Below are positions 1 through 11,921 of a stretch of DNA of 64,000 nt, piece after piece; position 1 is the stretch's first letter, and each line of letters opens with the position of its first letter. The notes below the pieces were generated by a model, which saw nothing but the letters and a program-made list of their open reading frames with translations, did not search any database and was not told the DNA's origin. The DNA comes from Silvibacterium bohemicum (GTDB lineage: Bacteria > Acidobacteriota > Terriglobia > Terriglobales > Acidobacteriaceae): positions 124,001 through 188,000 of the forward strand of contig NZ_LBHJ01000008.1 of assembly GCF_001006305.1 (NCBI RefSeq), given 5' to 3'. The position numbers and the translations under genes are program-made.

Positions 1-470
1 GAGTCGGAGCTGTACTGCGTGCGATAGCCCAGCGACTCGATAGCCCGCTGCGCCTTCTTCGCATCCCGTGGGTCGATAAGAAAATCGATATCCACCTGGT
101 GTCGTTCGCGGATATCCGCGAAGCATTCGGGAAACAGGCTGAAGCCTTTCACGCAGCCGTAGTGGGTTCCCGAAGACGCGAGCGCGGAACAGGCCTCACC
201 GAATTGGCCCAGCATGACTCGCATACGTTCCGCGTTATCGGTCAGCCGTTCTCTGAGCGCTTGCTGAACAGGAAGAGGAATGCCGCGATAGTTCTCCGTG
301 TCTGCGGTTTGTGTTTGCAACAGAGAGGCGAGCGGCAACGCGAGTCCGCTGCGATCGAGCCAGCGCAGATTCTCATCCCAAACGCGGCCTTCGATGTTTT
401 CGCAGGGAGTAAGCCGGCTCGCAGCCAGAGCTGCTACCACGGCGGATCGAAAGGAAATCGACTTGCTCAT
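1..470 (-). CDS. Uncharacterised nucleotidyltransferase family protein (partial, C-terminus beyond window)
   Basis: Minus-strand frame of about 156 codons that runs off the left edge. It starts at an ATG overlapping the stop of the upstream gene (ATGA, 467-470), so translation is probably coupled. The segment HQVDIDFLIDPRDAKKAQRA near residues 133-152, followed by a LGY stretch, matches the core of the uncharacterised nucleotidyltransferase family (PF14907-type), in which the Asp-x-Asp binds metal and nucleotide. The preceding KGFSLFPECFADIRER is the usual lead-in. Such proteins are often encoded beside HprK-like kinases in peptide- or polysaccharide-associated clusters, and that is the context here. 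The substrate is unknown. The missing C-terminus prevents a length check. Confidence 0.75.
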   Translation of the reverse strand, partial: MSKSISFRSAVVAALAASRLTPCENIEGRVWDENLRWLDRSGLALPLASLLQTQTADTENYRGIPLPVQQALRERLTDNAERMRVMLGQFGEACSALASSGTHYGCVKGFSLFPECFADIRERHQVDIDFLIDPRDAKKAQRAIESLGYRTQYSSD

Positions 471-925
471 GTCATTAAGCCCTCGCGTTGTCCGCTGTCC
501 ACCAAGGTTCCCAAGGCGTCTACCAAGGCGCGGAAGTAGAGCGTCAGGTTGGCGTCCGTGTGGGTGGGGTGTTTGCCTATGGTCACAAAGCCCGCGCCGT
601 CTCCAGTCGCCCGGTCGAAGGCAAACCACTGCGTATGTCCCACACTCACGTAGATCGAGCGTGCATCGCGAAATACTTGGCAGGTGCAGTCACCGGCGGC
701 ATCGTCGACCGATGACTCAGCGGTAATCTCCCAGCGATAAGCCTGGTCGTCGACTGATTCCTGCTTCGTAAATCCCGCATGTTCGGCCGCGCGCAAGACC
801 GATGCCGAATTTGTAGAAAGAGCGACCAAGGCGCCGGACCACGAGAAGCGTCCGCATTCCGCAAGGCGAACCCGTCGATGCATGAGATCAGTGGAAGAAG
901 CATCCCGGTCGTTTGAAGTATTCAT
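467..925 (-). CDS. Small protein resembling the N-terminal domain of the adjacent HprK-like kinase
   Basis: A 152-residue protein whose start at 925 overlaps the stop of the HprK-like gene (ATGA, 922-925) and whose stop overlaps the next start, so it is the middle member of a coupled trio. A longer in-frame extension to 1213 exists but lies wholly inside the HprK-like gene, so the ATG at 925 is preferred. There is no P-loop, signal peptide or membrane segment. By eye its order of motifs (S/T-N-A/S near the start, a WEIT strand, FRDAR, a W-FAFDRATG strand, then a helix ending ALGTLVD) parallels residues 20-128 of the neighbouring HprK-like protein (RTNAT, AAEISLT, FRGRG, FWFNLRT, ALMGVLAAAI). 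I infer a stand-alone copy of that N-terminal domain. Function unknown. Confidence 0.65.
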   Translation of the reverse strand: MNTSNDRDASSTDLMHRRVRLAECGRFSWSGALVALSTNSASVLRAAEHAGFTKQESVDDQAYRWEITAESSVDDAAGDCTCQVFRDARSIYVSVGHTQWFAFDRATGDGAGFVTIGKHPTHTDANLTLYFRALVDALGTLVDSGQREGLMT

Positions 926-1881
926 CGGTAACCTCGATTTGAAAGCGTATGATCCAGCAGCTGCGCAACCGTCGTCGGATGATCGTTGAACGAAAGCCGC
1001 AAAGTCGGTGTTGTTTTCAGCCGGCTTACAATCGCGGTCTGGCGTTCGAAGTAAGTATCGAGAGGAGGCTCGAGCGGTTCTAACTCGCCGATCAGCTGTG
1101 CGGCGGCCTGGGATCCGCAGACCGGCGTGATTGTGCAGCCGGGATCCTTTGCGCGGTCGAGCAGGACAACACAGTCGACATTGCACTTGAAGGCCCTCTG
1201 CACGCCAAAGCATCTCTCCGGATCCACTTCGTACGCAATCTCGCCATTCAGCGACTCTGCCTGCCGATACTCCGAGAGCTCGGGAAAGAACCGCACCGCA
1301 TCGGGAAGCAGCTTAACCAGCGTGGGTAGTCCCGAAGCCTCGATCGCGCCGTTGTCTGACAGGTACGTCCATTCATCGCTGAGCAGCGAATAGCCTCGCT
1401 TGGCGAGCGTGATCGTGAGTGTCGACTTGCCCGCGCCCGATCGCCCGTTGAGCAAAACTCCGCGGCCATCGCGCACCAGGCATGCGGCATGCACCGGAAC
1501 GACATCGATCGCAGCGGCCAGAACTCCCATCAACGCAGGAAAGATGTCTTTATGCCAGCGCTGGCGATCGTCGGCAAGCGCGCGGGGGAAGTGTCCCAGC
1601 ACCGAACGGGTACGCAGGTTGAACCAGAAGCGATCGCTCCTGGTGAATCGTGCAAAGGCGAAGTAGCCGCGGCCGCGAAACCATGGAGCATCCTCCAGCT
1701 GTGAATTCGGCTGGTCGTCAGCGGTCAAGCTTATCTCTGCCGCGATGTCTGAACTGCTTCCGGCTTCGATCGCAGGAAAGTACTCGCGAATACGGCGCAC
1801 CATCTCCGTCGCATTCGTGCGAAAGAGAATTGTGCGTCCTGCGAACATGGCCGGCTGCGTGAAAATTCTCAAGGTATCCAT
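922..1881 (-). CDS. HPr kinase/phosphorylase-like (HprK-related) P-loop protein
   Basis: A 319-residue protein. A Walker A loop GRSGAGKST sits at residues 146-154, preceded by PVHAACLVRDGRGVLLN and followed by LLSDEW; this order is typical of the C-terminal kinase domain of HprK relatives. The N-terminal 130 residues form a separate domain. No HPr or other PTS gene is in the window, so HPr is unlikely to be its substrate. Relatives (HprK-related kinase A types, lasso-peptide kinases) act on peptides or unidentified envelope substrates. It heads a coupled minus-strand trio with the small protein and the nucleotidyltransferase, and is transcribed divergently from the radical SAM operon, sharing a control region that contains phased TGACA repeats. 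Family assignment is firm; the role is inferred from company. Confidence 0.82.
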   Translation of the reverse strand: MDTLRIFTQPAMFAGRTILFRTNATEMVRRIREYFPAIEAGSSSDIAAEISLTADDQPNSQLEDAPWFRGRGYFAFARFTRSDRFWFNLRTRSVLGHFPRALADDRQRWHKDIFPALMGVLAAAIDVVPVHAACLVRDGRGVLLNGRSGAGKSTLTITLAKRGYSLLSDEWTYLSDNGAIEASGLPTLVKLLPDAVRFFPELSEYRQAESLNGEIAYEVDPERCFGVQRAFKCNVDCVVLLDRAKDPGCTITPVCGSQAAAQLIGELEPLEPPLDTYFERQTAIVSRLKTTPTLRLSFNDHPTTVAQLLDHTLSNRGYR

Positions 1882-2054: not shown

Positions 2055-3620
2055 ATGCCTGACTCATCGCTCATCACGCAAATATCGCCGGCCCCCAGAA
2101 AGCGTCTCAGCGGAAGTTCGTCCGGGAAGAAGAAAGTTGTGCTGTTTTATCCGGCGTACGATGGCCCGCCGCTTGGCCCGCCCCTTTGCATGCTGGCGCT
2201 CGCCGCTCCGCTCCTCGACAACGGATTCGAAGTCGTGCTGATCGATGCGGCCATTGACGCCGATGCCGACGCACGTGCGGTACGTGAGTGTTCAGACGCG
2301 ATCTGCATGGGTGTTTCGGTGTTGACCGGGCCAACCATCAACGCGGCGCTGCGAGTCTCGCGTAAGGTCAAGGCCGCGCATCCGCAGCTGCCCGTCGTCT
2401 TCGGAGGATGGCATCCGACTCTCTCCAGTGAATCGACTCTGCGCAACGAATTCGTCGATGCCGTGGTTCGAGGTCCCGGTGATTGGACTTTTCTGGAGAT
2501 GGTGCAGCGCTACCAGGCGAACGAGGATCTTGACGGAGTCGATGGAGTCAGCTACCAGCGGGATGGAAAGTTCATTCATAACCCTGAGCGCAGCGTCACT
2601 CACCTGAGAGACCTGCCCGCGCCGGCCTTTCATCTTGCCGACCATGACGCCTACGAACGCGCATGCGGAAAGAGGAAGCTCACCTACGCCACCAGCGTCG
2701 GTTGCCCTTATGCGTGCAACTATTGCACCGATACTGTTTTCTATCACCGCCGCTTCAATGCTTATTCCGCTGAGCATGTGGTTGCCGAGCTCGTCGACCT
2801 GGTCACTCGCTATCGCATCGAAGAAGTCGCGTTGCTCGATTCAAACTTTCCCGTGGATGTGAAACGTGCGGTCGCGATTGCGCGCGGCATCTATGAGTCG
2901 GGCGTTCGTTTTTCGTGGACCTTCCAGGCATCGACCGATTTCCTTTCGCGCATGACCGACGAAGAGGTGCGGATCATGGGAGCGAGCGGCGTCACCTTCA
3001 TGGGCTTCGGGACAGAAACGACCTCGGAGTCGGTTTTGAAGCTGATGAACAAGCGTCATCAGCGTCTGAACGAGTTATATGAAACCGCGCGCAAGGCCGA
3101 ACTCGGCGGAATCCGCGTGAGCTTCAACCTCATCTTCGGCTACCCCGGCGAGACGGAGCAGGATCGTATCGAAACTCTGCAGACCATGAACGAGATCGCG
3201 CAGAAGCATCGCAACGTCAGCTTCTCGCCGAACATTTTCACGCCCTACCCAGGTATTCCCATCTGGCCGCAGCTGAAAGAAATGGGAGTGAAAGAGCCGG
3301 AGTCATTGGAAGAATGGGCCGGGCTTCCTCTCGGCAAAAATGTACTTCCCTGGCTCAAAGGCGCCGAGCTGAGACGGCTGGAGCGCATGCTCGACTACTT
3401 CATGGTCAACAACAATATCCGCGTCACGATGCAGCACAACCGGTTCGCAGGCAAAGTATTGAATACGATCCTTCGCGCGCCGATGAAGCAGCGCATGAAG
3501 TCGCGAGTCTTCTTCTTTCCGTGGGAGATCTGGCTGGCGCGTGCGACCGACCGGGTTGTTTCCCGCCGCTCCCTCATTACCGGAGCACCGCTACCGGCCA
3601 AGCTCAAGGAGGCTTGCTAA
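2055..3620 (+). CDS. B12-binding-type radical SAM protein 1
   Basis: A 521-residue protein. The ATG at 2055 is preferred over the one at 2043 because GGAG lies six bases upstream of it. Residues from about 30 to 160 form a Rossmann-like cobalamin-binding-type domain (VVLFYPAYDGPPLGPP, then VVFGGWHP and a VRGPGDWTF segment). The [4Fe-4S] cluster motif C-x3-C-x2-C is C217, C221, C224 in VGCPYACNYC. A GFGTETTSE segment and an IFGYPGET segment follow, as in the Elp3/NifB-like fold, and there is a basic C-terminal extension. No DxHxxG cobalamin-ligand motif is visible, which is common in this group. First gene of an eight-gene operon: its TAA overlaps the ATG of the next gene by one base, behind a strong AAGGAGG. 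The reaction is unknown; methyl transfer or carbon-skeleton chemistry are the family possibilities. Confidence 0.88.
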   Translation: MPDSSLITQISPAPRKRLSGSSSGKKKVVLFYPAYDGPPLGPPLCMLALAAPLLDNGFEVVLIDAAIDADADARAVRECSDAICMGVSVLTGPTINAALRVSRKVKAAHPQLPVVFGGWHPTLSSESTLRNEFVDAVVRGPGDWTFLEMVQRYQANEDLDGVDGVSYQRDGKFIHNPERSVTHLRDLPAPAFHLADHDAYERACGKRKLTYATSVGCPYACNYCTDTVFYHRRFNAYSAEHVVAELVDLVTRYRIEEVALLDSNFPVDVKRAVAIARGIYESGVRFSWTFQASTDFLSRMTDEEVRIMGASGVTFMGFGTETTSESVLKLMNKRHQRLNELYETARKAELGGIRVSFNLIFGYPGETEQDRIETLQTMNEIAQKHRNVSFSPNIFTPYPGIPIWPQLKEMGVKEPESLEEWAGLPLGKNVLPWLKGAELRRLERMLDYFMVNNNIRVTMQHNRFAGKVLNTILRAPMKQRMKSRVFFFPWEIWLARATDRVVSRRSLITGAPLPAKLKEAC

Positions 3621-5128
3621 TGGCAACCGTTCCCGACAAGCAAACTTCTGTCGACGTCCTGTTCACCCACTCGTACCATCTTGCCTACGACCGCAAGCAG
3701 GCGCAGAAGCAGCAGCCCTATCCTCCGCTCGGAACGCTCTATGCGGCTGCGCTGGCCCGCGAAGCCGGATTTTCCGTCGCTCTGTTCGACACCATGATCG
3801 AGGATCCCGATAACGACTTCGATCATGCACTGGAAAAATATCAGCCCAAGATCGTGGTGATCTGCGAGGACAGCTTCAACTTCCTCTCCAAGATGTGCCT
3901 CTCCCGCATGAGGGAAGTGAGCTTCGACATGCGGCGACATGCAGCGCTGCGCGGAATTCCCACGATCGTTCACGGCTCGGATTCGAGCGATCACACGCAG
4001 ACCTATCTCGACCAGGGATTTCTCGCCGTCATGCTGGGCGAGTGCGAGCAGACCATCGTTGAGTTGCTGGGCGCATACCTTCACGATGGCCAGCATGCGA
4101 ACTGGAAGATTCCCGGTCTTACCTACCTGCGCAGCACTGACGGCGCCTTCACTTCGACTGGCGCTCGCACTCCATCCAAGCAGCTTGATCTCTATCCGCT
4201 TCCGTTGCGGAGTCTGGTCGACATGGATCGCTATGCCACAATCTGGCGTATTCATCACGGCCGCGCTTCCACCAATATCGTCGCGAGCCGCGGTTGCCCG
4301 TTTCGCTGCAACTGGTGCGCAAAGCCGATTTACGGCAATAAGTTCGTGCTCCGTTCCGCCAAGTCGGTGGCGACGGAAATGTATCTGCTGAAGAACGAAT
4401 ACGGCGTCGAGCATCTGTGGTTCGCGGACGATGTATTTGCGCTCGACCGGCACTGGATACTGGAATTTGCCGAGGCCGTGGAAGCGCTCGATGCCGCCAT
4501 TCCGTTCAAGATTCAGAGCCGCGCCGATCTCATGTCGGAAGAGACTGTGGATGCGTTGCGGCGTGCCGGATGTGAAGAGATCTGGATGGGCGTCGAGTCG
4601 GGCTCGCAGAGCATCCTCGACGCCATGGACAAGGGGCTGAAGGTGAGCATCGTCCGTGGCGTTCGCGAACTTCTGCGCTCGCACGGCATCCGCGCTTCGT
4701 TCTTCCTGCAGTTCGGTTATCCCGGCGAACAGCTTGAAGAGATCGAGGAAACCATCGCTCTGGTCCGCAGCTGCCGTCCTGACGATATCGGTGTCTCCGT
4801 CTCTTATCCGCTGCCGGGCACCGGTTTCTATCAGAAGGTGCAGGATCAACTCGGAGCCAAGCAGAACTGGGTCGATAGCGAGGATCTGACGGTGATGTTT
4901 CGCGCCGCCTACACCGACAAATTTTATCTTGCGCTTCGCAATGCCCTGCATTCCGAGGTGTCGTATTACAACCTGCCGCCGAGTGCGGAGGAATCACAAC
5001 GGGTCGCCGCACTGTGGAACGAAGTCTATCGGCTGGAGAAAAGCTGCAGAAATCCCCGCTCGATGCAGCTTCCCATCTTCACGCCGAGTAAAACCGAAGA
5101 CCTGTCATTGTGCGCGTCGGGTGACTGA
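3620..5128 (+). CDS. B12-binding-type radical SAM protein 2
   Basis: A 502-residue protein. The ATG at 3620 overlaps the previous stop (TAATG) and follows AAGGAGG at 3607-3613; the longer frame from 3314 lies inside the upstream gene. An N-terminal B12-binding-type domain (QPYPPLGTLYAAALAREAGF, then LGECEQTIVELLGAY) is followed by the radical SAM core with C226, C230, C233 in RGCPFRCNWC, a WFADDVF strand, GVESGSQSILDAMDKG and a QFGYPGEQ segment. It closely resembles the next radical SAM protein in the operon: both have a MDRY-x-x-x-W-x-x-HHG lead-in before the cysteine motif, so the two look like an internal duplication. The B12 ligand motif DxHxxG is not seen. Substrate unknown. Confidence 0.88.
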   Translation: MATVPDKQTSVDVLFTHSYHLAYDRKQAQKQQPYPPLGTLYAAALAREAGFSVALFDTMIEDPDNDFDHALEKYQPKIVVICEDSFNFLSKMCLSRMREVSFDMRRHAALRGIPTIVHGSDSSDHTQTYLDQGFLAVMLGECEQTIVELLGAYLHDGQHANWKIPGLTYLRSTDGAFTSTGARTPSKQLDLYPLPLRSLVDMDRYATIWRIHHGRASTNIVASRGCPFRCNWCAKPIYGNKFVLRSAKSVATEMYLLKNEYGVEHLWFADDVFALDRHWILEFAEAVEALDAAIPFKIQSRADLMSEETVDALRRAGCEEIWMGVESGSQSILDAMDKGLKVSIVRGVRELLRSHGIRASFFLQFGYPGEQLEEIEETIALVRSCRPDDIGVSVSYPLPGTGFYQKVQDQLGAKQNWVDSEDLTVMFRAAYTDKFYLALRNALHSEVSYYNLPPSAEESQRVAALWNEVYRLEKSCRNPRSMQLPIFTPSKTEDLSLCASGD

Positions 5129-5167
5129 AACAAAGATGAGCAGTACCGGAACTGAAGGAGCCAAACG

Positions 5168-6604
5168 ATGGACCTGCTGTTAACACACGGATATTTTCTG
5201 TACGAAGATCCCAAGGAGCTTCAGATCATGAAGCCATATCCGCCGCTGGGTCTGCTCTATATCTGTTCCCATCTCAGGAACAAAGGCTTCGCCGTCGACG
5301 TTTTCGACAGCACCTTTCAGTCGCGCGCCGCGTTGCGCGAAAAATTGACGACCACGCCGCCGTCGGTGCTCGGTATCTACGCCAACCTCATGACCCGGCC
5401 CAACATCGTCTCCATCATCCAGGAGGCGAAGCAGGCGGGTTGGAGAATCATCGTTGGAGGACCCGAGCCCGGAGCCTACGTGGATGAATATCTCGATGCG
5501 GGCGCCGACCTGGTAGTGCTCGGCGAAGGCGAGATCACGCTCGAAGAGCTGCTTGGAGCATGGCGTGAGGATAAGAATGCGCCGCTCGATGGGATCGATG
5601 GAATCGCCTTCCGGTCGAATGGAATTGTCGTGCGCACTGCGCCGCGCGCCCAGATTGCGGACCTCGATGCGCAGCCCTGGCCAGCGCGAGAGGCGATCGA
5701 TATGGATCGCTATGTCGAAACCTGGCGGACTCATCATGGCAAAGGTTCCGTATCGATTATTACTGCGCGCGGATGCCCTTATCGTTGCGAATGGTGCAGC
5801 CATCAGGTCTTCGGACAGACTCATCGCCGCCGCCGTCCCGAGTTGGTTGCCGAAGAGCTTGCGTGGCTGATCGAACGCTACAAGCCCGACGCGCTTTGGA
5901 TCGCAGACGACGTCTTCACGATCAACCATGATTGGCTGGCGCGCTGGGCCGCGGAGTTGAAGCTTCGTAACATTCACATCCCGTTCGAGTGCATCTCTCG
6001 TGCGGATCGGCTGAATGAAGTTACTATTCGAACTCTCGCCGAGTTGGGATGCCAGCGCCTGTGGATTGGGTCGGAGAGCGGATCGCAGCGCATCCTCGAT
6101 TCCATGCAGCGCGGCGTGAGCGTACAGAAGGTGCGGCAATCCATCGCCCTATGCAAGGAAAACGGGATCGAGACAGGAATGTTCTTGATGTGGGGCTATG
6201 AAGACGAGCAGATGACCGACATCGAAGAGACCATCGAGCATGTGCGTCTCTCGCAGCCGGATATCTTCCTGACCACCGTCTCCTATCCCATCAAGGGAAC
6301 GCCGTATTACAAAAAAGTGGCGTCGAAAGTTATTCAAATCAAGCCTTGGGGGCAAACGTCGGACCGGGAGTTTGAAGTCGCCGGCCGCAAGCCGCGTGAG
6401 TTCTACCGTGTCGCCGATGAGTTGCTGCGCTACGAAGTCGAGTTGGCGAGGCTGCAGACAAAAACAGCGGGCCGCGAGGCAAACAGCGGCGATCCCGAGA
6501 ATGAAGTTGTTTCGCGCATGCACACGCTATCGGAATTAGTAGAAGACAGGCGGCGCACCCTCTATGCATACCCCGAGGCTGAGAGGGAATTGCAATGCAA
6601 TTAG
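5168..6604 (+). CDS. B12-binding-type radical SAM protein 3
   Basis: A 478-residue protein; the ATG at 5168 follows AAGGAG, 39 bases after the preceding gene. The B12-binding-type domain covers about residues 1-150 (MKPYPPLGLLYICSHLRNKG, GGPEPGAYVDEYLDAGAD, LGEGEITLEELLGAW). The radical SAM core carries C203, C207, C210 in RGCPYRCEWC, then WIADDVFTI, GSESGSQRILDSMQRG and MWGYEDEQ. It is a paralogue of protein 2 and aligns with it almost end to end by eye, apart from a different C-terminal tail. The stop lies 10 bp inside the next gene, so translation is probably coupled. Reaction unknown. Confidence 0.88.
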   Translation: MDLLLTHGYFLYEDPKELQIMKPYPPLGLLYICSHLRNKGFAVDVFDSTFQSRAALREKLTTTPPSVLGIYANLMTRPNIVSIIQEAKQAGWRIIVGGPEPGAYVDEYLDAGADLVVLGEGEITLEELLGAWREDKNAPLDGIDGIAFRSNGIVVRTAPRAQIADLDAQPWPAREAIDMDRYVETWRTHHGKGSVSIITARGCPYRCEWCSHQVFGQTHRRRRPELVAEELAWLIERYKPDALWIADDVFTINHDWLARWAAELKLRNIHIPFECISRADRLNEVTIRTLAELGCQRLWIGSESGSQRILDSMQRGVSVQKVRQSIALCKENGIETGMFLMWGYEDEQMTDIEETIEHVRLSQPDIFLTTVSYPIKGTPYYKKVASKVIQIKPWGQTSDREFEVAGRKPREFYRVADELLRYEVELARLQTKTAGREANSGDPENEVVSRMHTLSELVEDRRRTLYAYPEAERELQCN

Positions 6605-7425
6605 CTTGCGAAAGCGCGGAGGATTACATCTCTGCGGGCCACGCCTTCGATGGTATTGCCAAAGAATACGACGAGATCTTCACGCGCTCTCTCATCGGGA
6701 AAGCACAGCGCTCCCTCGTTCACGAGGTGCTGAAGACCTTCTTCTACCGGGGAGATCGAATCCTCGAATTGAATTGCGGCACCGGTGAGGATGCCGCGTT
6801 TTTAACCTCGCACGGTGTTTCGGTGCTGGCGTGCGATGCCTCGGAGGGAATGATCGAGGTTGCCTCGCGTCGGCTTTCCACGCGCTCCGCGCGGGTGTCG
6901 GTTTCGTTTGCCGTATGCGCCAACGAGCGCCTCGATACGCTGCAGGGCAGTCATGTCTTTGATGGCGTTCTGTCCAACTTTGGCGGATTGAACTGCACTC
7001 GCGATCTATCCGAAGTTGCCGGCGAGCTCGCACGTCTCGTCCGACCGGGCGGCCGATTGTTTCTTTGTCTCATGGGCCGCGTATGTGCCTGGGAGCAGCT
7101 CTGGTATTGCCTGAGAGGCGAGTGGAGGAAAGCCTTCCGCCGCATCGCGACCGGAGGAACGAAGGTCTCCCTCGGCGGCACGACGATCGATGTTCATTAT
7201 CCATCGGCGCGAGAGATGCGCGCCGCCTTCGCGCCTTATTTCCGGCTCGAGAGCCGCCGCGGCATCGGGGTTGCGCTTCCGCCTTCCTGGATGGAGGCTT
7301 CTTTTCACAATCGTCCGAAGTTAGTCGATCGTCTGACGGCGATCGACCGAAGACTTGGCGCACTTCCCGTGTTTCGAGGAATGGCCGACCATGTCTTATT
7401 TCAGTTTGTACGTGAGGGTGAGTGA
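6595..7425 (+). CDS. Class I SAM-dependent methyltransferase 1 of the radical SAM operon
   Basis: A 276-residue protein whose ATG at 6595 lies 10 bp upstream of the previous stop, behind GAGGGA. The glycine-rich motif I ILELNCGTGEDAAFL lies at about residues 56-70 and an acidic motif II (LACDASEGMIEVA) at about 76-88, giving a standard Rossmann SAM-binding fold. LARLVRPGGRLFLCLMGRV is the usual post-motif strand. The C-terminal part is basic and variable, as expected for the substrate-binding side. There is no signal peptide, so it acts in the cytoplasm. Substrate not predictable; the context suggests tailoring of whatever the radical SAM enzymes make. Confidence 0.85.
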   Translation: MQLACESAEDYISAGHAFDGIAKEYDEIFTRSLIGKAQRSLVHEVLKTFFYRGDRILELNCGTGEDAAFLTSHGVSVLACDASEGMIEVASRRLSTRSARVSVSFAVCANERLDTLQGSHVFDGVLSNFGGLNCTRDLSEVAGELARLVRPGGRLFLCLMGRVCAWEQLWYCLRGEWRKAFRRIATGGTKVSLGGTTIDVHYPSAREMRAAFAPYFRLESRRGIGVALPPSWMEASFHNRPKLVDRLTAIDRRLGALPVFRGMADHVLFQFVREGE

Positions 7426-8426
7426 GTTCCGTAAGTTTACATTCCGTGTCTCCTATGCTGCCAACAGTGACAAAAGGGTTATCGCTGCTGTGTCCCGCCT
7501 GCTCCAACGAGCTGAGGCCGCTCTCCGATTGCGAGGAGACCTTCAACACTGCGTGGATTCCTTGCGACTGGTGTCCCGAAGTAATTCGCAAAACCAACGG
7601 TGTGTGGAGAATGCTTTCCACGCAGCAACGTATCGATCACGCGGCTTTCCTGCGTGACTATGAAACCATCCGCCGCACCGAGGGCCGCGGTTCGGATCGG
7701 TCCGACTTCTATCTTGCCCTGCCCTTCGCCGATGTGACGGGAAGGTTCAGCGAGCAGTGGAAGATTCGGGCGCGCAGCTATCGTTTTCTCGAAGAGACCC
7801 TGCTGCCTAGCCTCGAACAGCGCCATGGAAGCCAGATGCGCGTGCTGGACATCGGCGCAGGCAATGGGTGGCTTAGCTATCGTTTGGCGCTGCGCGGCTA
7901 TCTCCCCGCTGCGGTCGATTTGTGCCGCAACGAGTGGGATGGCCTTGAAGCCGCGAAGCACTACACGTCCGCGATCCCCGGCCTGTTTCCGCGCATCGAG
8001 GCTGAGATGGATAATCTTCCCTTTGCCAATGCGCAGTTTGACGTGGCGATTTTCAACGCGTCGTTCCATTACTCGGCGGATTACAGCAAGACCTTGCGCG
8101 AGACGCTGCGCTGCCTGCGGTCCGGAGGAACAATCCTGATCGTTGACTCACCGACCTATCGCAGTGCCGCTGGAGGCGAGGCGATGCGGCGTGAGCGCCA
8201 GCGTTCGTCGGAAGCCAGGTTCGGCGTGTCGGGCGATGCGCATGCGACGCAGGACTTTCTGACGCCGGAAATCGTGGAATCGCTGTCCGGATTGGGCATT
8301 CAATGGACGCGGCACCTTGCCTCGTACGGTCTCCGCTGGAGCATGCGTCCGTTGATCGCCCGGCTGAAGCGGCGCAGAGAACCATCACAGTTTTATCTCT
8401 ATGAAGGGCGGATGCTCTCAGCATGA
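7422..8426 (+). CDS. SAM-dependent methyltransferase 2 with an N-terminal zinc-ribbon
   Basis: A 334-residue protein with a GTG start at 7422 overlapping the preceding TGA. The N-terminus carries two CxxC pairs, C24-C27 (LLCPACS) and C48-C51 (IPCDWC), spaced like a treble-clef or ribbon zinc site. The methyltransferase core follows: VLDIGAGNGWLSYRLALRG at about residues 141-159, AVDLCRNEWDGL, then an FDVAIFNASFHYSADY strand and a LRSGGTILIVDSPTY strand. This build resembles methyltransferases that carry a small zinc finger ahead of the catalytic domain. The stop overlaps the next start (ATGA). Substrate unknown. Confidence 0.85.
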   Translation: MSSVSLHSVSPMLPTVTKGLSLLCPACSNELRPLSDCEETFNTAWIPCDWCPEVIRKTNGVWRMLSTQQRIDHAAFLRDYETIRRTEGRGSDRSDFYLALPFADVTGRFSEQWKIRARSYRFLEETLLPSLEQRHGSQMRVLDIGAGNGWLSYRLALRGYLPAAVDLCRNEWDGLEAAKHYTSAIPGLFPRIEAEMDNLPFANAQFDVAIFNASFHYSADYSKTLRETLRCLRSGGTILIVDSPTYRSAAGGEAMRRERQRSSEARFGVSGDAHATQDFLTPEIVESLSGLGIQWTRHLASYGLRWSMRPLIARLKRRREPSQFYLYEGRMLSA

Positions 8427-9886
8427 TACTTCTCTATTACCCCAAGCTCACCAGCCCCAAGAATCGGCGCTTTCCTCTTTCCATCATGGCGCTTGCCGCG
8501 GTGCTCGAAGGCCGCGAGAAGTACGAAGTCGTGGATGGCAATCTCGACCCCGAGCCCGATAAGACACTGGCACGCCTGATCGAGACCAATCATGTGGAGT
8601 TGCTCGGCGTCAGCGTGATGCCGGGTCCGCAGATGGTCTCCGCGATGAACTCGTGCAAGGCGATCCGCGAAAGTTATCCAGATGTGCCTATTGTGTGGGG
8701 CGGATATTTTCCGTCGACTTATCGCGATGCGACGCTCAACGCCAACTACGTGGACTACGCGGTGCGCGGTCAGGGCGAGACTACGCTCCTGGAGTTGATC
8801 GAAGTGGTGCGCGGCCAGCGCAGTCCAGCTCAGGTGGCTGGGCTCTCTTATAAAGAAGGCCGCCAGAAGTTTCACAATCATGAGCGCGCTATGCAGGGTC
8901 CCGACGAATTTCCCTGGATACCCTATGAGCGTGTGCCGGTAGCCAGCTATCTCCGCCCGTCGTACTTCGGCAAACGCACGGGCGCGCACCAGGCCAGCAT
9001 CGGATGCCCTTTCCAATGCAGCTTCTGCGCCGTACATGAGGCCTTCGGCAGCCTGCAGAAGATGGAATCGCCAGCGCGCACCGCTGCCATCCTTCGCCAT
9101 CTCGTCGACAACTACGGAATGGATGGCGTGCAGTTCTACGACATGAACTTCTTCCTCAGCGAAAGCCACACTCGCGAGCTGATGGAAAACCTTGCGCCTC
9201 TCGGGCTGCACTGGTGGTGCGAAGGCAGGATTGATGCCATCTCCCGCTACTCCGACGAGACGCTCGAATGGATTCGCCGCGCCGGCTGCACCATGATCTT
9301 CTTCGGCGCCGAGTCAGGTTCGAACAAGACGCTGAGGGAGATGAAGAAGGGAATCACGATTGAGCAGACCATAGAAGTCGCCAAGCGGATGCGCAAGCTG
9401 GGCATCGTTCCCGAGTTCTCCTTCGTGATCGGAAACCCGCAGAATCCCGAAGAAGACACCCACGAAACCATCTCCTTCATCCGCAAGCTCAAGCGCCTGA
9501 ATCCCGTTTCCGAGATCATCGTGCAGCACTACACGCCCGTTCCCCAGCGGGGCAAGATGTATGGCGGCATCGATGGCGGCATCGTCGGCTTTCCCTCGAC
9601 TATTGAAGAATGGGCCACACCGCGCTGGTACAACTTCACCATTCGCGTCAATCCATCGATGCCATGGTTGCAGCCCAAGACCAAGAAGCTCATCGATAAC
9701 TTCGAAACAGTGGTGGCCGCACGCTGGCCAACCGTGCAAGACATCCGAGCCAGCAAAGCGAGTCGCGTCTTTCTGAAGACCATAAGCGCCTGGCGGTATA
9801 CGACCGGCTTCTACAACAATCCGAAGGAACTGACCATGGCTCAGAAATGGATTCGTCTGCGCCGGCCAAAGGTTGAGAGCATATGA
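8423..9886 (+). CDS. B12-binding-type radical SAM protein 4
   Basis: A 487-residue protein starting at an ATGA overlap with the upstream methyltransferase. The N-terminal B12-binding-type domain (MILLYYPKLTSPKNRRFPLS, then VWGGYFPSTY and VRGQGETTLLELIE) precedes the radical SAM core with C195, C199, C202 in IGCPFQCSFC. The segments FYDMNFFLSE, GAESGSNKTLREMKKG and VIGNPQNPEED complete the expected barrel. The start at the very edge of the first beta-strand and the C-terminal helical tail ending KWIRLRRPK resemble radical SAM protein 1 more than proteins 2 and 3. Substrate unknown. Confidence 0.88.
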   Translation: MILLYYPKLTSPKNRRFPLSIMALAAVLEGREKYEVVDGNLDPEPDKTLARLIETNHVELLGVSVMPGPQMVSAMNSCKAIRESYPDVPIVWGGYFPSTYRDATLNANYVDYAVRGQGETTLLELIEVVRGQRSPAQVAGLSYKEGRQKFHNHERAMQGPDEFPWIPYERVPVASYLRPSYFGKRTGAHQASIGCPFQCSFCAVHEAFGSLQKMESPARTAAILRHLVDNYGMDGVQFYDMNFFLSESHTRELMENLAPLGLHWWCEGRIDAISRYSDETLEWIRRAGCTMIFFGAESGSNKTLREMKKGITIEQTIEVAKRMRKLGIVPEFSFVIGNPQNPEEDTHETISFIRKLKRLNPVSEIIVQHYTPVPQRGKMYGGIDGGIVGFPSTIEEWATPRWYNFTIRVNPSMPWLQPKTKKLIDNFETVVAARWPTVQDIRASKASRVFLKTISAWRYTTGFYNNPKELTMAQKWIRLRRPKVESI

Positions 9887-10608
9887 CGTCCACCGCGACG
9901 CAGGGGAAGAGGGGCATCGGCGCAAAGCTCATCGATTCAGACGAGGCCTATCGCCATTGGGCGCCAACCTATGATTCCACTGCGAATCCGCTGCTTGCGC
10001 TCGAGCAGCGCATCGCCCCGCTCGCGAAGGGAATGTTCCAGGGCAAAGACGTTGTTGACTTGGGCTGTGGAACCGGCCGGTGGTTATCTCGGATAGAGGC
10101 ATGCGCTCCGCAGTCTCTGACCGGTGTCGACAGCAGCGAAGCCATGCTGCGCCAGGCGGCGCAGCGATGCCAGACAGCCACTCGCCTCAAGCAGGCAGAT
10201 TGCGCTGCGAGCGAACTTCCCGATCGCAGCGCCGATTGCATCGTTGCTTCCTTCGTTGTCTCCTACGTCACTGACCTGCAGGCTTTCGCAGGCGAGGCGG
10301 CTCGCCTGCTGCGACCCAATGGCAGCATCTTTGTTTCCGACGTCCATCCCCACGGCCGCTCTTACGGCTGGCGGCGCACCGTCAAGATCGCCGCGGAGTC
10401 CTTCGAGATTGCCACTGAGGATTACACCCTGCAACAATTGATCGCTGCGATGCGCGAGGAAGGCTTCTTGCTCACCGAGCTTATCGAACCATGCTTCGGG
10501 CCTCAGGAGCGTGAGATATTCCGCCGCGCCGGCAAATCCGCCGCCTATAACGATGTCGAAGCCAAGCCCGTAATTTATTGGGCGCACTTCACGAGCGCAT
10601 CGGAATGA
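9883..10608 (+). CDS. SAM-dependent methyltransferase 3 of the radical SAM operon
   Basis: A 241-residue protein with its ATG in a four-base overlap with the preceding stop. Motif I DVVDLGCGTGRWLSRIE lies at about residues 51-67, motif II is GVDSSEAMLRQAAQR, and a LRPNGSIFVSDVHPHGRSYGW segment follows. It belongs to the Methyltransf_11/25-like small-molecule or lipid methyltransferase type. Its stop again overlaps the start of the following amidohydrolase gene, so seven of the eight operon genes are directly joined to a neighbour by overlap. Acceptor unknown. Confidence 0.85.
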   Translation: MTSTATQGKRGIGAKLIDSDEAYRHWAPTYDSTANPLLALEQRIAPLAKGMFQGKDVVDLGCGTGRWLSRIEACAPQSLTGVDSSEAMLRQAAQRCQTATRLKQADCAASELPDRSADCIVASFVVSYVTDLQAFAGEAARLLRPNGSIFVSDVHPHGRSYGWRRTVKIAAESFEIATEDYTLQQLIAAMREEGFLLTELIEPCFGPQEREIFRRAGKSAAYNDVEAKPVIYWAHFTSASE

Positions 10609-11921
10609 TCTCTGCGGCCGCACCCCTCCGGTCCATCGCGGCAACCTCCTCGCAGAGAATTGTCCTCGCCGGTGCGCGCGTCGCCCGCTCGCCATTCAGC
10701 GCGAAACACCGCACGATCGTCGTCGCCGGGCCCTTTATCGAAAGCATCCAGATGCAATGGCTGGACCAGGCACGCTCTCATCGCGGAGACGAGGCGGTCA
10801 TCGATCTCTCCGGTTATACCGTTCTGCCCGGTCTGGTGAATGCTCACGACCACCTGGATTTTTCGATCTTTCCGCGGCTTGGCAACGGACCCTACAACAA
10901 TTGGAAAGAGTGGGCCGCCGACATCTACCATCCTGGCCGACCTCCGATCGATCAGCTGCTACGCGTACCGCGCGAAACCCGCGTCTGGTGGGGTGGCATT
11001 CGCAATCTTCTCTGCGGTGTAACGTCAGTCTCCCATCACAATCGCTATCTGCCTGAGGTCTTCGAAGACGGCTTCCCGGTGAGCGTTCCAGCCGAGTACG
11101 GATGGGCGCACTCCGTTACTGATCCTGAAGAAGTCCGCGAGAGCTACCGCCAAACTCCATCCGACTGGCCATTTCTCATTCACGTTGCCGAAGGCACGGA
11201 CGACGCGGCAGAGGAGGAGTTCGAGCAGCTGCAATCGCTACTGCCCATCGACGAGCGCGTGGTTCTGATACACGCTGTCGGACTCTCTTCCCGGCAATGG
11301 AAGACGGTTGAGCAGGGCCACGCCGGACTCGTCTGGTGCCCATCCACCAATCTCTTCCTGCTAGGCCGCACTTTGAGCGTCGAGCAGATGCGAAGACTGC
11401 CCAACGCAGCTTTGGCCACCGATTCTCCTCTGACCTCGACACGCGACCTGCTGGACGAGGTTCGTTTTGTCCACCGCGAGATGGATGCACCGGCGCCATT
11501 GCTCTATGAGCTGGTAACCACCAAGGCTGCTCGCCTGCTCCGTCTGAATTCAGGGCAAGGGGAGCTGAAACCGGGAGGCCACGCCGACCTGATCGCGACA
11601 AAAGATATGTCCGGCGATCCATCGGAGACCCTTGCCGGCATCTCATGGCGTGACATAGAGCTGGTCATGCAGGCTGGCAAGGTCATGCTCGCCTCCGCGG
11701 AGATCGCCGCACGCCTTCCGGAAGAGCTGCGCAGCGGCATGGAGCGGATCTTCGTCGACGGAACAAAGAGATTCGTTCGCGCTCCTGTGCAGAAGTTGCT
11801 GGACGAAACCCAGACTGTCTTAGGCCGGCCCCTCTCGATTACCGGCAGAAGTGTTGAGAGCGAAGGGCCATCGGATGCCATCCTTTGCCCCAGCTCCACC
11901 CCTGCCTACGCCCTTCAATAG
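10605..11921 (+). CDS. Amidohydrolase-superfamily enzyme (TRZ/ATZ-like)
   Basis: A 438-residue protein; the ATG at 10605 overlaps the preceding TGA, so the upstream extension to 10578 is dropped. After an N-terminal beta-sandwich part, LPGLVNAHDHLDF supplies the H81-x-H83 metal pair. FLIHVAEGTDD and VVLIHAVGLS supply the further histidines, and LATDSPLTS supplies the metal-binding aspartate. That is the one-metal pattern of cytosine-deaminase/chlorohydrolase-like members. GQGELKPGGHADLIA is the usual closing segment of the sandwich domain. As last gene of the radical SAM operon it could remove an amine, amide or protecting group at the end of a pathway; this is inference. No terminator is recognisable after it. 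Confidence 0.83.
   Translation: MISAAAPLRSIAATSSQRIVLAGARVARSPFSAKHRTIVVAGPFIESIQMQWLDQARSHRGDEAVIDLSGYTVLPGLVNAHDHLDFSIFPRLGNGPYNNWKEWAADIYHPGRPPIDQLLRVPRETRVWWGGIRNLLCGVTSVSHHNRYLPEVFEDGFPVSVPAEYGWAHSVTDPEEVRESYRQTPSDWPFLIHVAEGTDDAAEEEFEQLQSLLPIDERVVLIHAVGLSSRQWKTVEQGHAGLVWCPSTNLFLLGRTLSVEQMRRLPNAALATDSPLTSTRDLLDEVRFVHREMDAPAPLLYELVTTKAARLLRLNSGQGELKPGGHADLIATKDMSGDPSETLAGISWRDIELVMQAGKVMLASAEIAARLPEELRSGMERIFVDGTKRFVRAPVQKLLDETQTVLGRPLSITGRSVESEGPSDAILCPSSTPAYALQ

Follow-up and report, generated by a model that had tools for sequence, protein, structure and literature searches.

A conserved acidobacterial operon rich in B12-type radical SAM enzymes and its possible role in remodelling a nitrogen heterocycle

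What is made by an operon in which four B12-type radical S-adenosylmethionine (SAM) proteins stand beside three methyltransferases and a single amidohydrolase? Such an operon lies at positions 2055–11921 of a 64,000-nucleotide stretch of the Silvibacterium bohemicum genome (contig NZ_LBHJ01000008.1, positions 124,001–188,000; hereafter the window), where all eight open reading frames (ORFs), encoded on a single strand, were recovered. An earlier reading of this sequence (the original prediction) proposed a dedicated pathway to a heavily modified small molecule, lipid or glycan decoration. The operon is a genuine pathway, conserved among soil acidobacteria, and its genes probably act together to build one heavily modified small molecule; we tentatively propose that it methylates or remodels a nitrogen heterocycle, probably derived from guanosine triphosphate (GTP), which is deaminated by the amidohydrolase and perhaps glycosylated. 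The eight genes, denoted A to H, are as follows.

A, 2055..3620, + strand: B12-binding radical SAM protein; start ATG 2055, with an alternative ATG at 2043 possible
B, 3620..5128, + strand: radical SAM protein with a B12-binding domain slightly below cut-off; retained in a short sister operon (see below)
C, 5168..6604, + strand: B12-binding radical SAM protein; its sister in the tree is B
D, 6595..7425, + strand: SAM-dependent methyltransferase
E, 7422..8426, + strand: SAM-dependent methyltransferase; N-terminus cysteine-rich, as judged by eye
F, 8423..9886, + strand: B12-binding radical SAM protein; the marker chosen for the long operon
G, 9883..10608, + strand: SAM-dependent methyltransferase; forms a single ORF with H in 24 of 36 relatives
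H, 10605..11921, + strand: amidohydrolase with a predicted ring-deaminase fold

Comparison with Pfam placed Radical_SAM and B12-binding domains above cut-off in A, C and F; B contains the Radical_SAM domain and a B12-binding match of 31.0 bits against a cut-off of 32.1. D, E and G carry methyltransferase domains, and H is matched by Amidohydro_1. Each radical SAM protein has the CxxxCxxC motif (at residue 217 of A, counted from the start at 2055, 226 of B, counted from 3620, 203 of C and 195 of F), and each methyltransferase has a SAM-binding glycine motif (ILELNCGTG in D, VLDIGAGNG in E and VVDLGCGTG in G), both as the original prediction had it. A, B, C and F are presumed to use cobalamin. 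Six of the seven junctions overlap (A/B, C/D, D/E, E/F, F/G and G/H), the exception being B/C with a gap of 39 bases; the stop–start overlaps predicted for seven of the eight genes are real, although all eight genes in fact touch a neighbour. The start codon of H is most likely the ATG at 10605.

Genome contigs scanned with F as marker yielded 36 loci of 60–79% identity, all Acidobacteriota by title and including the genera Edaphobacter, Granulicella, Terriglobus, Silvibacterium and Paracidobacterium; these loci overlap with the genomes of the genome survey used below, and the two samples are not independent. With genes beyond contig ends scored as misses, F was present in 36 loci, C and D in 34 each, G in 33, B and H in 30 each, E in 28 and A in 19, and all counted operon genes lie on the same strand as F. 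B, C, D, E, G and H all accompany F in 24 of the 36 loci (20 of the 23 full-length loci), and the order B-C-D-E-F is retained in 26, a linkage far beyond chance. The usual operon is longer than that of the window: a radical SAM gene upstream, A′ (35–42% identity to A), and a radical SAM/SPASM gene downstream, I, are each present in 27 loci, and G and H are fused as a single ORF of at least 600 residues in 24. The window operon, without A′ and I, is a reduced form of this longer operon. The window genome holds a 49% homologue of I on another contig, with one more B12-binding radical SAM gene 9–10 kb away (contig C13; L093:1843-2907 and L092:11233-12837, respectively, where L and G numbers denote our loci and genomes).

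At the level of the phylum, the F profile matches 32 of 396 genomes (E ≤ 1e-75), of which 16 belong to families other than the window genome's; thirteen loci from other acidobacterial families contain F (13), D (10), C (9), B (7), I (6), E (6), A′ (5), G (4) and H (3). The shared gene neighbourhoods that the original prediction had advised looking for across Acidobacteriota are therefore present, with both co-occurrence and gene order conserved, and its notion of a dedicated pathway is borne out by this conserved set.

The genes are also co-inherited. Of the 150 genomes in the window genome's family, 21 carry F, and precisely these 21 carry C. Phylogenetic analysis of 94 radical SAM proteins recovered B, C and F each as a clade (support 0.998–1.0), with B and C as neighbours; A and A′ are not cleanly resolved into two clades once distant loci are included. 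Correlations between the distance matrices of B, C, D and F are 0.73–0.92, values reached in 0 of 2000 permutations each; for I, with fewer loci available (9–10), they are 0.61–0.82 (0–1 of 2000 permutations). At the locus of G447, a genome of the window genome's family, B, C and F all cluster with loci of other families, which suggests that the operon moved as a block. Within Acidobacteriota the operon is thus inherited, apparently with at least one transfer as a block.

A second, shorter operon bears on the substrate. Seventeen genomes lack F and carry an HprK-like gene, itself a recurrent neighbour of the long operon; of the 15 examined (G093 and G434 were left out), eight have an operon in the order nucleotidyltransferase, D, GTP cyclohydrolase II (X), B, E, H and uridine diphosphate (UDP)-glycosyltransferase, on a single strand in all eight (L128:660-8654, L129:5845-16749, L130, L131, L132, L138, L139 and L140). 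It was not found in the examined stretches of the other seven (G027, G195, G271, G358, G474, G505 and G535). This short operon holds one radical SAM gene (B) and two methyltransferase genes (D and E). A gene for a membrane glycosyltransferase of family GT87 is present in five of the eight stretches, and the HprK-like gene lies on the opposite strand in seven and just outside the eighth, in the overlapping L110. A PhyH-family gene was also seen near the short operon in seven of the eight.

The cyclohydrolase of the short operon passes the curated model TIGR00505 (226.2 against a cut-off of 205.85) and is an extra copy: 149 of the 150 family genomes have a match (E ≤ 1e-50), in most cases to a second enzyme of the housekeeping kind (50–60% identity), and the housekeeping enzyme of the window genome is 57% identical to that of the short operon. 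X also adjoins the long operon in two of the 36 loci (L035, where it passes TIGR00505 at 210.4, and L037) and in G146 (L118). In midpoint-rooted trees the short-form B, E and H branch within the long form, next to Edaphobacter-like loci. Read in this way, the short form would have arisen from the long pathway by shortening and by the gain of GTP cyclohydrolase II, although the change may have run in the opposite direction.

The amidohydrolase was examined as an AlphaFold2 model (predicted local distance difference test score, 86.9). Its best structural matches are deaminases of adenosine, methylthioadenosine (MTA) and S-adenosylhomocysteine (SAH) at Z 33.8–35.1 (4f0s 35.1, 4gbd 34.9 and TM0936 34.6), the top five being adenosine deaminase homologues and TM0936 at Z 34.1–35.1; root-mean-square deviations to 4f0s, 4gbd and TM0936 are 2.8–2.9 over 347–360 residues. 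Triazine and isocytosine deaminases follow at Z 31–32 (atrazine chlorohydrolase 32.1, isocytosine deaminase 31.8), and a profile comparison with the PDB ranked 4dyk and 4gbd best and atrazine chlorohydrolase third. H81, H83, H193, E196, H223 and D273, which we take to be the metal ligands and catalytic residues of deaminase-type amidohydrolases, are invariant in all 16 aligned proteins. By the fold of its model H is of the ring-deaminase/chlorohydrolase type and could be either a tailoring enzyme or a scavenger of the by-products 5′-deoxyadenosine and SAH.

In the scheme that we put forward, GTP would be opened by GTP cyclohydrolase II, encoded within the operon in the short form and supplied by the housekeeping enzyme in the window genome. 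H would remove the ring amino group of the resulting isocytosine-like pyrimidine, and the ring would be methylated by D and E (ordinary methylation) and by the radical SAM protein B (at unreactive carbons). In the long form C, F, A and G may remodel the ring further; overall, A, B, C and F (joined in fuller operons by A′ and the SPASM protein I) and D, E and G would in turn methylate or rearrange a single small nitrogen-heterocyclic intermediate. Its product may then receive a sugar from the GT87 or UDP-glycosyltransferase partner. We infer the substrate, the order of the steps, the product and each step past gene content. Among the product types first suggested, a small molecule stands, but a lipid is disfavoured because the GTP cyclohydrolase II of the short operon points to a GTP-derived heterocycle.

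Several observations weigh against this scheme. The cyclohydrolase is absent from the window operon, from 34 of the 36 long-form loci and from the 13 long-form loci of other families, and because close and distant loci alike lack it, a GTP origin for the long form, the window operon included, is a weaker suggestion than for the short. Node support for the attachment of the short form is weak (0.0–0.87), and short-form D is a separate clade (support 1.0). H is found in only three of the 13 loci of other families and, as modelled, is equally well placed for the removal of 5′-deoxyadenosine or SAH.

The genes next to the operon, which enter into both the glycosylation step and the alternatives, are listed below.

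HprK-like protein with P-loop, 922..1881, − strand: divergent partner of the operon
152-residue partner protein, family not assigned, 467..925, − strand: between the HprK-like and nucleotidyltransferase genes
Nucleotidyltransferase (NTP_transf_5), 5′ part, 1..470, − strand: the remainder lies beyond the window, in L057
GT87 membrane glycosyltransferase, L057:12941-15175, − strand: directly left of the window; C-terminal WD40/TolB-like propeller

The HprK-like protein has an intact P-loop but does not reach the cut-off for HprK-related kinase A (TIGR04352; 46.5 bits against 200). It is found in 21/21 genomes with F against 17/129 without (Fisher 1.3e-15, uncorrected for relatedness, with a profile in which two subtypes are pooled and partial sequences included, and with F genomes tending to be larger), and its gene is within 20 kb of F in 16 of the 21. 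The GT87 protein with its β-propeller tail is found in 17/21 against 7/129; a 27% homologue of the L057 protein lies beside an A′-like gene in another family (L060). Further genes occur in the vicinity of some of these 36 long-form loci: nucleotidyltransferase (9), CuA-like cupredoxin (10), cytochromes c (8 and 5), a two-component pair (6) and two proteins labelled porin-like by eye (6 and 5). In the window, the operon is followed at 14.7–24.6 kb by exopolysaccharide genes (a GT4 pair, GT2, flippase, Wzz and an export protein).

We considered whether the HprK and cytochrome genes are an intrinsic part of the operon and rejected this. G027, G195, G474 and G505, which lack F and C genome-wide, carry HprK2, CuA-like, cytochrome and porin genes and no operon gene in the stretches examined, and for that reason we regard the HprK, cytochrome, cupredoxin and porin genes as a module of their own, frequently found near the operon; in G536 they are at one site and the short operon is at another. 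The conserved cassette in the F-negative G027 (L109:911-11712) and G195 (L111:1163-11923) comprises genes for a two-component system, a porin-like protein, a cupredoxin, a nucleotidyltransferase, the HprK-like kinase, a cytochrome c, a CuA-like protein, a small cytochrome c and a second porin-like protein. Near the long-form operon of G146 (L119:223-8025) we noted a flavin-reductase-like protein, an ABC exporter, a PhyH-family protein and two related proteins of ~420 residues without a Pfam match. For the 152-residue protein, Foldseek gave a best E of 0.076 (chance level) and VIA a best Z of 5.3, with HprK and PEPCK chains at Z 4.0–4.5; no peptide-cluster recognition domain is among the fold matches listed, which does not exclude one. 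Judged by eye, it is similar to the N-terminal region of the HprK-like protein, and its relative L028:748-1227 matches no Pfam family.

How far can other explanations account for these genes? H may be a scavenger that deaminates the inhibitory by-products 5′-deoxyadenosine and SAH, in which case it sets no limit on the substrate; we consider this somewhat unlikely. The structural and profile neighbours of H do include the MTA/SAH deaminases 4f0s and 4f0r, 4gbd with methylthio-coformycin, and TM0936, H is fused to methyltransferase G in two-thirds of the close loci (24/36), and 5′-deoxyadenosine is stated to inhibit radical SAM enzymes (PMC6079011). However, H is kept in the short operon, beside GTP cyclohydrolase II and with a single radical SAM gene, atrazine and isocytosine deaminases score merely ~3 Z units below the best match, and the NCBIfam 5′-deoxyadenosine deaminase model gives H 36.4 against a cut-off of 522. 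Modification of a ribosomal peptide whose precursor is encoded elsewhere seems to us highly improbable. A and B score 117–119 bits with the peptide-modifying radical SAM enzyme ApyD (cut-off 750), I has a SPASM domain and the HprK-like protein is weakly like ScmC of a radical SAM cassette (25 bits), but the 152-residue neighbour has no confident fold match, and among 1195 small ORFs (20–110 residues, within 1.5 kb of core genes at 49 loci, leaving out ORFs mostly inside known genes) none matched in more than two other loci, a search that did not extend to distant or unlinked precursors. This agrees with the earlier statement that the operon contains no recognised polyketide, peptide-precursor or non-ribosomal core gene.

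The pathway might instead make or decorate an envelope sugar or lipid (an exopolysaccharide or lipid-linked glycan), its radical SAM enzymes methylating or deoxygenating sugars or chains, which we regard as distinctly unlikely. Consistent with it are the GT87 distribution, the GT4 pair, flippase, Wzz and export genes that adjoin the operon in the window, and two loci (L048 and L052) that carry two GT9-like genes and one O-ligase-like gene (by eye); moreover, the solved radical SAM chain nearest to F and C is the apramycin enzyme AprD4. Polysaccharide genes are nonetheless adjacent in a minority of loci (Wzz in 3/36), and there is no obvious role for GTP cyclohydrolase II or a ring deaminase. 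The envelope-linked product of the original prediction remains plausible given the recurrent GT87, HprK-like and nucleotidyltransferase neighbours and the exopolysaccharide genes of the window, but it draws on neighbours only. A more speculative extension of the GTP-derived heterocycle, which we think quite improbable, is a redox cofactor of a new class, either secreted or held in the membrane. It would be a flavin- or pteridine-like ring, C-methylated at several positions by the B12 radical SAM enzymes and glycosylated by GT87 or the UDP-glycosyltransferase; the HprK-like protein and nucleotidyltransferase might phosphorylate or nucleotidylate it, and as an electron carrier it would be served by the products of the recurring CuA-like cupredoxin, cytochrome c and porin genes.

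Overall, the original prediction correctly recognised the pathway and its conservation and gave an incomplete picture of its extent and chemistry. To our knowledge, four or five B12-type radical SAM enzymes rarely stand together in one operon. Rule-based genome mining may overlook this one because it has no recognised polyketide, peptide-precursor or non-ribosomal core gene. The short operon provides a specific guess as to the substrate that lends itself to testing, along with a handful of enzymes (the cyclohydrolase, D, B, E and H). The B12-binding radical SAM subgroup has been called a largely untapped reservoir of chemistry (PMC8992657). In the literature searched, largely without subscription journals, we found no four-to-five-member operon of this type described from Acidobacteriota, and no title or abstract describing the operon itself.

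Amongst known systems, A, B, C and F resemble the B12-binding radical SAM enzymes BchE, HpnJ, ApyD, AprD4 and PhpK in domain order, CxxxCxxC motif and B12-binding domain (in B slightly below the Pfam cut-off), but differ in falling far under the curated cut-offs and in the presence of four to five B12-type members in one operon. None of the eight proteins reaches a curated NCBIfam cut-off among its best 25 matches; this includes the BchE, HpnJ, HpnR, ladderane, AprD4, ApyD and PhpK equivalogs, the best being C with BchE (152.1 against 481.35). The hopanoid and ladderane proteins (HpnJ, HpnR and TIGR04072) are likewise B12-binding radical SAM enzymes, with which the operon proteins score 59.7–116 bits against cut-offs of 360–650. 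In a plasmid collection, the best 12 of 139 records for F and the best 12 of 108 for C are all 23–28% identical; the S. meliloti and Calothrix matches have other gene sets in their annotated surroundings, and that of S. sojae lies in a region without annotation. The supposition that this is not a described pathway is in keeping with these comparisons. In its modelled fold and its metal-ligand pattern H resembles the MTA, SAH and 5′-deoxyadenosine deaminases, presumably of COG0402 type, but is 16–20% identical to them, does not reach the cut-off and is fused to G in most H-bearing relatives. A parallel in gene content is with the pathways of riboflavin, toxoflavin and pseudoiodinine, which, according to PMC9911603, start with the opening of GTP by GTP cyclohydrolase II; the pseudoiodinine operon described there comprises a cyclohydrolase, two methyltransferases, a WD-40 protein and a RibD deaminase. 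The short operon likewise combines a cyclohydrolase, methyltransferases and a deaminase, but it has a radical SAM enzyme, a type of gene that the available part of the pseudoiodinine description does not name (PMC9911603), and its deaminase is of the amidohydrolase type; the window operon differs further in having no cyclohydrolase. The enzyme families are known; their combination and the probable substrate are new.

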